In this document: positions 5,466 to 9,528 of the stretch, one piece after another
Layout of the letters: every line of letters starts with the position of its first letter
Numbering within the stretch: position 1 is the stretch's first letter
Assembly: GCA_007130245.1 (NCBI GenBank)
Contig: SLSW01000038.1
Location: forward strand, 1 to 51,322
DNA: 51,322 nucleotides
Direction: 5' to 3'
DNA from: Micromonosporaceae bacterium
Lineage (GTDB): Bacteria; Actinomycetota; Actinomycetes; Mycobacteriales; Micromonosporaceae
The notes under the pieces: model-generated
Database searches by the model: none
What the model was told of the DNA's origin: nothing
The model's input: the letters and a program-made list of their open reading frames with translations, nothing else
Translations under genes and position numbers: made by a program

Positions 5466-6338
5466 ATGAGCGCGGGAACCCTGATCACGGTGGCCCCGAC
5501 CGGGGCCGAGGCGGACAAGGCGGAGGTGCCGGCGCTGCCGGTGACCCCGGACGAACTGGTCGCCACCGCCAAGGACTGCCAGGCCGCCGGCGCCGGCATC
5601 ATCCACGTCCACATCCGCGACGACGACGCCCGACCGACCCTGGATCTGGGTCGGCTGCGCGACACCGTCGCGGCGTTGCGCACGGCGACCGACCTGGTGG
5701 TCCAGCTGTCCACCGGCGGCGCGGTCACCGACGCCGAGACCGACCGGTTGCGCGTGCTCGACGCGGCCCCGGAGATGGCCTCCTGCACCATGGGCACGGT
5801 CAACTTCGGCGACGAGGTCTTCTCCAACCGCTGGGACCTCATCGTCGCGCTGCACACCCGGATGCAGGAGCGCGGGGTGGTGCCCGAGTACGAGATCTTC
5901 GACCTGGGCCACCTGTGGTCACTGCAGCGGCTGCTGGAACGGTACGGACTGCCGGCCGGCGGGCACGTGCACGTCGACCTGGTGATGGGCGTACCGGGTG
6001 GGATGCCGGGCACCGCCGCGGCGCTGGTCGCCTGCCAGGCGGCCCTGCGTGCCCTGCCGGAGGGCACCACCTACTCGGCCACCGGCATCGGCCGCACCAC
6101 GCTGCCGGTGATGCTGGCGTCACTGTCGGCCGGTGGGCACCTGCGGGTGGGCATGGAGGACACGCTGTCGTACGCCCGCCGCCAGCCGGTCGAGTCGAAC
6201 GCGCAACTGGTCAGCCGGGCCGCCGAGCTGGCCCGGATCGCCCAGCGCCCACCGTTGACTGCCCACGAGGTGCGCCAGCTGCTGCGGATCCCGCCGGGCT
6301 CAGGCGTGCCCTCGACCGGGATCGGGCAGCAGCAGTGA
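5466..6338 (+). CDS. BKACE-type 3-keto acid cleavage enzyme
   Basis: A 290-residue TIM-barrel protein of the beta-keto acid cleavage enzyme family (DUF849), which condenses a beta-keto acid with acetyl-CoA using a divalent metal. Visible signatures: N-terminal ITVAPTGA, the metal-binding HVHIRDD, STGG, the EYEIFDLGHLW segment, and GGHLRVGMEDT near the C-terminus. The start at 5466 has GGGAGG upstream. The substrate is not predictable (3-keto-5-aminohexanoate is only the founding example). Its last 39 nt overlap the 3' end of lanM on the other strand. Confidence 0.85.
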   Translation: MSAGTLITVAPTGAEADKAEVPALPVTPDELVATAKDCQAAGAGIIHVHIRDDDARPTLDLGRLRDTVAALRTATDLVVQLSTGGAVTDAETDRLRVLDAAPEMASCTMGTVNFGDEVFSNRWDLIVALHTRMQERGVVPEYEIFDLGHLWSLQRLLERYGLPAGGHVHVDLVMGVPGGMPGTAAALVACQAALRALPEGTTYSATGIGRTTLPVMLASLSAGGHLRVGMEDTLSYARRQPVESNAQLVSRAAELARIAQRPPLTAHEVRQLLRIPPGSGVPSTGIGQQQ

Positions 6339-9263
6339 CGGCAACCGGCTGTCCGGATGCATCCGGAGCAGCTGGTACGCCACGCCGCTGAGCCCGTGCA
6401 TGAGGCCCGGGACGAACACATCGACGGTCGCGTGGCAGCGCGGCCCGTGTTCGGTCAGGCTGCTCAGCACCAGCCCGTCGAGCGTCGCGCGCTCGACGCC
6501 GTCCGGGCCGGCGCCAGCGGCAAGAGCCGAGGACATCAGCTCCCAGCTGCCGAGGTCGCCGTGGCACACCGTGTGGGTCAGTCCGAAACCGGTGCGCCAG
6601 CACAATCCCGCCGCCCGGCGCAGCGCGTCGTGCCAGCGCTGCCCGCCGTGGTGCCGCCACAGGTCGGCCGCCATGATCCCGATCCCGGCGGCGCCGTGGC
6701 ACCACCACTGCGACACCTCCCGCGGCTTGCGAAGGTCCCGCCAGCCCCCGAGATCCGGGGTGTACAGCGACTCCTCGTACCGCAGCGCCGCGTCCGCGAG
6801 CTCCGCGAACCGCGCCTGTCCGGTGGCGACCGCCAGCCGGTCGAGCGCCCAGCCGATACCCGAGACCCCGTGCGCGAACCCGCCGAGACCATCCGGTGCG
6901 CGTTCGCTCGGCCACCGCGCGCCGTGTTCGGAGTGCCGCGCCTGCGCAGCGAGGCGCTCGCCGATCTGTTCCGCTTCCCACCGCCAACGGTCCTTGCCGG
7001 TGAGGTCAGCCAGGCCCAACAGCGGCACCACCGCACCGGCCATCCCGTAGAGCACGTCGTATGTGTCGTCGACCGCGACCGATTCCGGTATCAGCTCCGC
7101 CAGCGCCTGCGCGTGGCCCAGCGCTTCGTCGACGTCGACGCCGCCGAACTCCCGCAGTAACAGCCAGCTCCAGATCCGGGACGCCAGCCCGACGTACGCG
7201 CCGGGGGGCTCCGGCCGCACCGCGGTTTCGGCACTCGCGCGCTGCTGCGCGGTCTGCTCCTCGTAGGTCCGCAACGTCCGCACCGCGTCTTCGAGCAGCG
7301 GCTCCACCTCCGGCACCGGGTCAGCCCGCCCGGCCAGCGACTCGGCCCGGTAGGCGGCCAGTGCGACCGCGACCCCGGCCACGCCACTGTAGAGATCGGC
7401 CGACAGCGGCCGGATCCGCCAACCCGTGGCGTCGAGCACCAGTGCCACCCAGCTCACGGTCCGGTCCTCGGCGCGCAGTGCTCCGTCGATGAGCCGGCGC
7501 ATGACCTGGGCGGCCGCCGTGCGACGACGCGGGTCATCGGGGTCGCTCACCACGTGGTCGGAGGGCAGCAGGTGGTGCTGGTCCTGCCTCCCGTGCTCGT
7601 CCAGAGTGCCCTGCGGGCCGCTGTCGTTGAGGTACGCGCTCACCACTGCGCTGCGGGTCACCACCCGGTCCACGGCCGGATCCAGCGCGCGCCACCGGCG
7701 CAGCGCGGTGTCGACCAGGTCCCGCGCCTGGCCCGTGGACACGCCGTGCGGCCCGGTCAGTCGCCCGTCGCGGGCGACGGTGGTGAAGACCGGGATGTCG
7801 CCGGTGAGCAGTTCGGTGACCTCCGCGTCGATGACCACTGGGTCGACCGAGGCCAGCGGCGCCGCCCGTCCCTGCTTGATCAGGACGTCGATCGCCCGTC
7901 GCCGGGCCCTCGCCTCGCGGTGCAGCGACACCGGATGCCAGAGCATCCGTGCAAGTTCGACATAGACCACCGTGTCGCGGGTGACCACCCGTATCTGGCA
8001 GTCCCGGAACGGCGTGAGCAGCTGCTCGAGCTCGCCCGAGCGGTCCAGCTCCTGCAGCCGGTCGGTGAGCGCGCCGAAGCCGTCGAGGACGTCGGTCCAG
8101 TGCCGGTCGAGTGCGGGTGTAGCGGCGGGATGGTTCGCGGCCGGCGGCACCGGCACCGTGGTGAAGTCGAGATGTGCCTCGTCCGTGCCGATGCCCACCA
8201 TGGTGGGCACCCGGAGCCGGGGCTGTTGCCCCGGCAGATGCCCGGTGGCGGAGATGTCCGCGCCCCGCAACGCCAGCGACTGTCCGCGCACCGGGAGCAG
8301 GCCCGTGCGGAGCACCGAATTGTTCACGAGTTGGGTGGCGCGGTCGGCCGCCGCGCCGAATCCCGACGCTGGCGGGGGATCCTGCGGGGTGAACAGTGTC
8401 TCGCAGTCCACCACGACCGGCACCGGGCCGGCGGCGATGACGTTGCCCGCGTGCAGGTCGCTGGCGCTGAGCAGTCGCATCAGGGCCAGCCACTGGCCGA
8501 TGCCGTAGTAGAACGCCCGCAGTTCGTCGTCGCCGGCACAGTAGCGGTGTGCGATGTGTTCGGCCCAGCCGTAGCCGTCGCGGCACACCACGCGGGGAAC
8601 GCGGAGGCGCGTCGAGTATGGCTGGTCGGCCAGGAGGCGGTTGAGCAGCCGACCCAGTTCGTGGTCCACCTCCAGCGGGCGGGGCTTGTAGTGCACGCGG
8701 CCGTCGACCAGTTCGAGGGTCATCACCGTCTCGCCGCCCTGGTGGCTGTCCCCCTCGCCAGGGGTGAGGCGGACCAGGCGCGGCGTGGCGCCGCTCAACT
8801 CCGCCACCGCGTCCCGGTCGGCCACGAACCGCTCCGCCATGCGCGCCGCCGCGGCGCACCGGTGGTCGATCATGCGGCGCAGCCGGGAGACCATGGTGGG
8901 ATAGCGCCCGGTCAGCGAGTCCCAGAACCCCGGCGTCGTCGCGGTGGTCAGCCACTCGTGCCAACGTTCCCGCGGTGTCGCGGCGGTCAGTTGGCCGGTG
9001 ACCCGCGCGGCGTTGAGTTCGAGCACCAGGACCCTGCTGACCTTGCGCCACACCTCCTGCCGCAGGGCGGCGGCGGTGCCCTCGGACACCGCCTGCCGCT
9101 CTGCGTCGCTCAACTGAGCGATGGAATCGAGCCGCCGGGCCAGGTCGGCCAGTCCCGGTCCGATCAGCTGTTCCAGGACCGGCGCCAGGTCGCTGTGCTC
9201 CAGATCGACGGGGTGGCCGTCCCCGGTGTCCGGGTCAACAGCGGGCTGGTCGTCGGTCAGCAT
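6300..9263 (-). CDS. lanM: Class II lanthipeptide synthetase LanM
   Basis: A 987-residue bifunctional enzyme that dehydrates Ser/Thr in a precursor peptide and then closes thioether rings. The N-terminal kinase-like dehydratase domain (about 60-560) keeps the expected catalytic residues: Lys193 in YKPRP, Asp269/His271/Asn274 in SDLHAGN, and Asp286 in VVDCE. The C-terminal LanC-like cyclase (about 610-987) has the zinc ligands Cys855 (WWCHGAAGIG), Cys900 and His901 (VCHGDLGS). I choose ATG 9263, which lies 7 nt after the lanA stop; the longer frame to 9347 would overlap lanA. Length is normal for LanM. The 3' end overlaps the BKACE gene by 39 nt. No LanT or protease is adjacent. Confidence 0.95.
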   Translation of the reverse strand: MLTDDQPAVDPDTGDGHPVDLEHSDLAPVLEQLIGPGLADLARRLDSIAQLSDAERQAVSEGTAAALRQEVWRKVSRVLVLELNAARVTGQLTAATPRERWHEWLTTATTPGFWDSLTGRYPTMVSRLRRMIDHRCAAAARMAERFVADRDAVAELSGATPRLVRLTPGEGDSHQGGETVMTLELVDGRVHYKPRPLEVDHELGRLLNRLLADQPYSTRLRVPRVVCRDGYGWAEHIAHRYCAGDDELRAFYYGIGQWLALMRLLSASDLHAGNVIAAGPVPVVVDCETLFTPQDPPPASGFGAAADRATQLVNNSVLRTGLLPVRGQSLALRGADISATGHLPGQQPRLRVPTMVGIGTDEAHLDFTTVPVPPAANHPAATPALDRHWTDVLDGFGALTDRLQELDRSGELEQLLTPFRDCQIRVVTRDTVVYVELARMLWHPVSLHREARARRRAIDVLIKQGRAAPLASVDPVVIDAEVTELLTGDIPVFTTVARDGRLTGPHGVSTGQARDLVDTALRRWRALDPAVDRVVTRSAVVSAYLNDSGPQGTLDEHGRQDQHHLLPSDHVVSDPDDPRRRTAAAQVMRRLIDGALRAEDRTVSWVALVLDATGWRIRPLSADLYSGVAGVAVALAAYRAESLAGRADPVPEVEPLLEDAVRTLRTYEEQTAQQRASAETAVRPEPPGAYVGLASRIWSWLLLREFGGVDVDEALGHAQALAELIPESVAVDDTYDVLYGMAGAVVPLLGLADLTGKDRWRWEAEQIGERLAAQARHSEHGARWPSERAPDGLGGFAHGVSGIGWALDRLAVATGQARFAELADAALRYEESLYTPDLGGWRDLRKPREVSQWWCHGAAGIGIMAADLWRHHGGQRWHDALRRAAGLCWRTGFGLTHTVCHGDLGSWELMSSALAAGAGPDGVERATLDGLVLSSLTEHGPRCHATVDVFVPGLMHGLSGVAYQLLRMHPDSRLPSLLLPDPGRGHA

Positions 9264-9270
9264 GTCGTGC

Positions 9271-9513
9271 TCAGCAGCACTGGATCCAGCCCCACTGGGG
9301 GTCCCAGGAGCCGGAGCACAGGCAACAGTCGCCGGTCCAGCCGCCACCGCCGCCGGTCATGGTGATCTCGAATTCGGTGTATCCGTCGGCGAACAGCGGC
9401 CCGGCCGGGTGCTCGAGACCCGCCACCGGATCGGCGCTGGTCAGCCAGCCGTTGACGATCGCTTCGGCCTGGTCAGGGGTGACCGTCGGCCGCTCGGGTG
9501 CAAGTGTTGACAT
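9271..9513 (-). CDS. lanA: Lanthipeptide precursor peptide LanA
   Basis: An 80-residue peptide directly upstream of lanM. The leader is acidic and contains HPAGPL (35-40) and an EFE segment, ending in TMTGGGGG (51-58), a plausible Gly-Gly-type cleavage site. The predicted core, 59-80, holds Thr60, Ser67 and Ser69 as dehydration sites, Cys63, Cys64, Cys66, Cys79 and Cys80 as thiols, and Trp59, Trp70, Trp74 and Trp76. A strong ribosome-binding site (AGGAGGAGG) sits about 6 nt before the ATG. Five Cys against three or four Ser/Thr means not all Cys can form thioethers. The exact cleavage site is uncertain. Confidence 0.9.
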   Translation of the reverse strand: MSTLAPERPTVTPDQAEAIVNGWLTSADPVAGLEHPAGPLFADGYTEFEITMTGGGGGWTGDCCLCSGSWDPQWGWIQCC

Positions 9514-9528
9514 GCTTTCCTCCTCCTA

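Follow-up and report, generated by a model that had tools for sequence, protein, structure and literature searches.

A possible disulfide in place of a lanthionine in a DUF6229-family class II lanthipeptide from a Micromonosporaceae bacterium

DUF6229 proteins are substrates of LanM synthetases, and one product, rhodanocin (the LanII product of Dyella sp. 333MFSha), has been produced and solved by NMR (PMC9576775). Rhodanocin contains the rings Thr6-Cys11, Cys8-Ser14, and Thr12-Cys23, plus Dhb18, and its authors state that the family spans at least two groups with differing rings (PMC9576775). In Lysobacter, DUF6229 proteins make up 21 of 27 unique class II precursors (PMC11451712). Disulfides have been described in bovicin HJ50-like peptides, in which ring C is a disulfide where lacticin 481-like peptides have a thioether, and in haloduracin alpha and plantaricin W alpha (PMC4018250). 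The ring C disulfide of bovicin HJ50 forms spontaneously and is required for activity, and changing Cys21 to Ser or Thr yielded no thioether (PMC4018250).

Here, we compare these systems with a locus in the window, by which we mean the whole stretch analyzed, a complete contig of 51,322 nucleotides from a Micromonosporaceae genome of 4.15 Mb in 377 contigs. The locus consists of a precursor gene, lanA, that adjoins a LanM synthetase gene, lanM (Table 1). The 80-amino-acid lanA product, which ends in GYTEFEITMTGGGGGWTGDCCLCSGSWDPQWGWIQCC (translation of 9271-9513, minus strand), passed the gathering cut-off of PF19740 (DUF6229) with 48.3 bits against 25. Moreover, lanA is preceded by the Shine-Dalgarno sequence AGGAGGAGG and ends 7 nt 5' of the lanM ATG at 9263. 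From the profile score, the ribosome-binding site, and the spacing to lanM, we conclude that lanA is a real gene, and its product belongs to a family already published as class II lanthipeptide precursors, that of the rhodanocins. The synthetase scored 543.1 bits against TIGR03897 (cut-off, 304) but only 74.9 bits, far under the cut-off of 575, against the LanKC model NF038151, which bears out the earlier, sequence-only reading of this DNA in calling the enzyme a LanM. It can be aligned with LicM2 and CylM, and the motifs YKPR, DLHAGN, and DCETLF and the zinc-site motifs WCHG and CHG, which we take to hold the catalytic residues, are intact.

Table 1. Features of the lanA-lanM locus, in window positions; bridge partners are predictions.
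Feature	Position	Strand	Basis
lanA, 80-aa DUF6229-type class II lanthipeptide precursor, stop included	9271..9513	-	translation, DUF6229 profile match
Leader, residues 1-54, up to ...EITMTG	9352..9513	-	alignment: conserved with DUF6229 relatives
Core proposed by the sequence-only reading, residues 59-80	9274..9339	-	translation, codons
lanA stop codon	9271-9273	-	
Shine-Dalgarno sequence of lanA, just 5' of ATG	9519..9527	-	sequence
Thr60: predicted Dhb, partner Cys66	9334..9336	-	analogy to rhodanocin Thr6-Cys11; inference
Cys63 (C1): predicted lanthionine with Ser69	9325..9327	-	as rhodanocin Cys8-Ser14; inference
Cys64 (C2-2): predicted disulfide with terminal Cys; Ser/Thr in 70/83 anchored relatives	9322..9324	-	inference
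Cys66 (C2): predicted methyllanthionine with Thr60	9316..9318	-	inference
Ser67 (C2+1): predicted lanthionine with Cys79 or Cys80	9313..9315	-	as rhodanocin Thr12-Cys23; inference
Ser69 (C2+3): predicted lanthionine with Cys63	9307..9309	-	inference
Trp-rich loop WDPQWGWIQ, residues 70-78	9280..9306	-	compared by eye with relatives' loops
Cys79-Cys80, C-terminal pair	9274..9279	-	translation, core comparison
lanM, LanM (class II) lanthipeptide synthetase with a DUF4135 dehydratase domain and a LanC-like cyclase domain	6300..9263	-	profile matches, alignment, motifs

The composition of the core is uncommon. Residues 59-80 (WTGDCCLCSGSWDPQWGWIQCC) hold five Cys (63, 64, 66, 79, and 80), three Ser/Thr (Thr60, Ser67, and Ser69), and four Trp (59, 70, 74, and 76), exactly as the sequence-only reading had counted them, and five Cys against three Ser/Thr support its inference that one or two Cys stay free or enter a disulfide. 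Of the 79,876 stretches of 22 residues without a stop that the six frames of the window contain, 13 held at least five Cys together with at least four Trp, those that overlap the lanA core being counted in. Relatives were gathered from the source genome, its family, 75 LanM loci of named genomes, the class, and the family of a Dyella genome; DUF6229 precursors were present in 6 of 394 genomes of the class and in 42 of 233 genomes of the Dyella genome's family. A first set comprised 73 distinct post-leader segments, after 4 of 94 matches had been dropped (two that were truncated or lacked PAG/PVG and two NTR-repeat open reading frames), and the pooled set comprised 131. In the first set, Cys outnumbered Ser plus Thr in three segments, the window's and two from Corallococcus, each with five against three; the excess was thus two in all three, and no segment had an excess of one. 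Four Trp, also singled out in the sequence-only reading, were found in the window alone, as one other segment had two and 58 of the 73 had none. The Trp-rich loop resembles, by eye, YDPATGMHYF of a congener (G023) and YDPVTGETYY of contig C67 in the same genome, and looks like a Trp-enriched version of a genus-wide loop.

Which Cys makes the excess can be seen from an anchored motif, C1-x(2,3)-C2-[ST]-x-[SC], that is present in 84 of the 131 pooled cores, the window's included. The other 47, among them all six paralogues of the source genome, were left out of the comparison, and one doubtful anchor (L212, loop length 0) was retained among the 84 and among the 70 cores discussed below. The sequence-only reading had made its case depend on conservation of the extra Cys among homologues, and the outcome is divided: Cys63, Cys66, and the terminal CC are common to many homologues, but Cys64 occurs only here. 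Because Cys64 alone is unshared, it is Cys64 that makes the excess. Three genomes of the genus, 300 of the family, and the 75 LanM loci yielded no other core with Cys64, such that the residue is known from one sequence. Its codon, TGC, is one base from TCC (Ser) and likewise one base from GGC (Gly).

The residues that form the three rings of rhodanocin can be located in the window core. Rhodanocin and the lanA product share a DUF6229 leader, a LanM, an upstream Thr, the motif C-x2-C-[ST]-x-S, and a C-terminal Cys, and with these features in common the three NMR rings can be mapped. The exact spacing T0-C2-C5-T6-S8-T12-C17, taken from the published rings rather than from the 333MFSha sequence, was found in five distinct cores of Rhodanobacteraceae. 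The window departs from it in that Thr60 stands at C1-3 instead of C1-2, one residue further from C1 than the Thr of rhodanocin, and in that the core ends in CC. Moreover, at C2-2 rhodanocin-type cores carry a residue without a hydroxyl group, and they end in one Cys, whereas the window has Cys64, CC, and the Trp-rich loop. Other DUF6229 cores, actinobacterial and otherwise, of the forms CGTxC[ST]xS....CC and CSxC[ST]xS....CC are like the window in leader, motif, CC, and a related LanM (up to 55% identical), but they carry Ser/Thr at C2-2, which would permit a fourth lanthionine.

The residue at C2-2 and the C terminus vary together. Among the 83 anchored cores other than the window's, Ser/Thr at C2-2 was accompanied by a terminal CC in 70 and by a single Cys in none, and another residue at C2-2 by a single terminal Cys in 13 and by CC in none. 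Of 17 columns from C2-8 to C2+8, C2-2 was the sole column that fully separated CC from single-Cys cores. The rule would be explained if the C2-2 Ser/Thr and a terminal Cys form a fourth lanthionine in these relatives. The window has Cys64 at C2-2 and has retained the terminal CC.

How many events underlie the covariation affects its weight. Four of the 13 cores that lack the C2-2 Ser/Thr come from one Micromonosporaceae genome (G037) and nine from Rhodanobacteraceae, and the tree places the LanMs of the two groups apart, each in a supported part, suggesting that the Ser/Thr was lost twice, independently. The look-alike cores of G037 and Rhodanobacteraceae could also reflect core exchange, which would cut the events to one. 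With so few lineages among the 13 cores, the covariation may go back to two events, and Fisher's p overstates its strength. Moreover, three of the four G037 cores bear a further Cys in the loop, beyond the rule, so their count departs from a plain three against three. The G037 cluster, whose cores show Gly/Ala at C2-2 and end in one Cys, also holds the closest LanM in the tree (UFB 99/SH-aLRT 96); the ancestry of Cys64 is therefore uncertain, and it may derive from Gly rather than Ser.

We propose that lanA and lanM form a two-gene class II cassette of the rhodanocin-related DUF6229 family. LanM would dehydrate Thr60, Ser67, and Ser69, and three thioethers would follow with the topology of rhodanocin: Thr60-Cys66, Cys63-Ser69 with the Cys N-terminal, and Ser67 to Cys79 or Cys80. 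In most motif-bearing relatives, a fourth lanthionine would join the C2-2 Ser/Thr to whichever Cys of the terminal CC is left. As the C2-2 residue of the window is Cys64 while the CC is kept, the fourth bridge would here be expected as a disulfide between Cys64 and Cys80 (or Cys79), closed by oxidation after LanM has acted. On the covariation in the cores and on analogy to rhodanocin, we consider a DUF6229 LanM product with three thioethers and a Cys64-Cys79/80 disulfide somewhat likelier to exist than not to. We infer every bond of the lanA peptide, and likewise the sequence of steps, its export, the removal of the leader, and its activity.

A disulfide in a LanM product is not new in itself, and the precedent of bovicin HJ50 makes the chemistry plausible here. 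The sequence-only reading had set the LanM in contrast to its labyrinthopeptin comparison, but a LanM is not odd in itself here, as bovicin HJ50, haloduracin alpha, and plantaricin W alpha are class II peptides that contain a disulfide. What bovicin HJ50 and lacticin 481 share with the window is the proposed logic, a ring closed by a disulfide in one peptide and by a thioether in another with no dedicated oxidizing enzyme. The ring and the peptide are different ones, however, the leader of the window is of the DUF6229 type, and we claim no kinship.

Perhaps the three thioethers form but the spare pair of Cys is a different one, for example Cys79-Cys80 oxidized to each other, or the rings are rewired. 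Ring patterns vary even inside DUF6229 (PMC9576775), Cys63/Cys64 and Cys79/Cys80 are adjacent so that the synthetase could use either member of each, and the stretch after the motif, 6 residues long in 68 of the 84 anchored cores, counts 11 in the window. The covariation of C2-2 with the terminal CC, however, indicates one specific pair. Vicinal Cys-Cys disulfides are, moreover, rare, and we regard a different pair as unlikely. Still less probable, in our view, is a product without an intramolecular disulfide, in which the extra Cys would be free thiols, bind metal, or form an intermolecular disulfide. Archangium LanII-2B did retain one free Cys when made in Escherichia coli (PMC9576775), and no disulfide oxidoreductase was found among the scanned neighbors of lanAM, but bovicin HJ50 oxidizes spontaneously with no dedicated enzyme (PMC4018250), and an excess of two Cys is what one disulfide requires.

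Cys64 might instead be a mutation, neutral or damaging, and lanA a paralogue that is decaying or has recently been altered. The source genome carries seven DUF6229 precursors and four LanM genes (on contigs C290, C67, C106, and C52), the LanM on contig C52 has lost catalytic motifs, and two congeners have no lanAM at the same site. Decay nonetheless seems improbable to us, as the reading frame, the ribosome site, and the LanM motifs of the window are intact and C1, C2, and CC are retained. Labyrinthopeptins, to which the sequence-only reading had likened the core, are class III peptides with carbacyclic rings, a disulfide, and Cys at both ends, and the window resembles them in outline, in its CC...CC layout and in a predicted disulfide besides enzyme-made rings. 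The labionin motif is S-(X)2-S-(X)2-5-C (PMC8960859), and the window core offers only S67-X-S69. With neither this motif nor a LanKC, and with a DUF6229 leader and a LanM in their stead, both motif and enzyme class speak against labionin rings, and we give a labyrinthopeptin-like product hardly any credence.

Replacement at a mapped crosslink position may have happened more than once. Corallococcus sicarius and C. llansteffanensis cores (TGCSACTGCAD.xCC; L113 and L115) have, like the window, five Cys, three Ser/Thr, and a Cys at such a position, but there the Cys takes the place of Ser at C2+3, in the C1-Ser ring, instead of standing at C2-2. The C2+3 Cys thus would be a second, separate instance of Ser/Thr-to-Cys exchange. 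We tentatively suggest, while leaning slightly against so broad a statement, that the DUF6229 scaffold is fixed and that one bridge, from C2-2 to the second terminal Cys, is modular: most members would close it as a lanthionine, rhodanocins and the G037 cluster would lack it, and the window would use a disulfide. Ser/Thr-to-Cys changes at mapped crosslink positions would then swap thioether for disulfide in nature, with no novel type of enzyme needed. If true, a simple sequence rule would give the ring topology of a large and mostly uncharacterized class II group, and the window would hold a natural thioether-to-disulfide exchange. Were the disulfide to close only after the peptide has left the reducing cytoplasm, the bridge could depend on redox state, as proposed for bovicin HJ50 (PMC4018250). 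Those parts of the literature on disulfides in LanM products, Micromonosporaceae, and Corallococcus that were at hand contain no account of such a bridge.

How the leader is removed bears on the mature N terminus, which is putative. The leader boundary at residue 54 follows conservation, and the core start at residue 59, after GGGGG, was a guess of the sequence-only reading. No C39 (LanT-type) peptidase was found in the source genome, which is 94.8% complete; cleavage at GG by a C39 transporter-peptidase was therefore rejected. LahT150 failed to cut the rhodanocin precursor despite its possible double-Gly motif (PMC9576775).

The scanned neighbors of lanAM are a YgfZ-like folate-binding protein, BKACE, and an asparaginase, with no transporter or tailoring gene among them. 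In all three genomes compared by tblastn, of which two belong to the genus and one to the family, BKACE and asparaginase are direct neighbors with 5 to 35 nt between them, and neither lanA nor lanM intervenes. In the window, the two-gene cassette sits between BKACE and asparaginase on the opposite strand. Thus, the cassette was either inserted here or lost elsewhere. Its G+C content (0.719) is close to that of the flanks (0.733 and 0.719). At the insertion border, about 39 nt (window 6300-6338) belong both to lanM and to the BKACE frame that converges on it.

Elsewhere in the source genome, the fourth LanM (L010 241-3048, on contig C52) has YRPR for YKPR, DCATLF for DCETLF, and a gap in the dehydratase domain, and is probably impaired in dehydration. 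The end of contig C106 (L008) is identical to the start of C52 (L010) over 95 bases, such that both contigs probably belong to a single larger cluster, which would hold two LanMs along with several precursors. Genome G037 (L068 8043-10139) has at least four tandem DUF6229 precursors followed by one LanM; their cores are related but nonidentical, and fragments are present as well.

Some LanM loci of other genomes are unusual in other ways. In Nonomuraea candida (L139 4274-4930) and N. basaltis (L136 4253-4930), a DUF6229-type leader is followed by a long Cys-free NTR-repeat tail with about 40 Thr, and a LanM gene lies next. The N. candida LanM has Cys changed to Ala in both zinc-site motifs of the cyclase (WAYG and AHGD); that of N. 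basaltis has WAYG at the first, the second lying beyond the examined stretch. These loci suggest a dehydration-only class II system, and full-length matches occurred in 2 of 341 genomes of the family. Cys-free precursors associated with LanM have already been mentioned (PMC7268733). Finally, at two loci (L070 2651-5874 and L072 1864-5322), a LanM is followed by an ABC transporter, with no C39 domain in that of L070, the one scanned, and then by a berberine-bridge-type FAD oxidase, an arrangement not present at the window lanAM locus. The FAD oxidase might act on the peptide.
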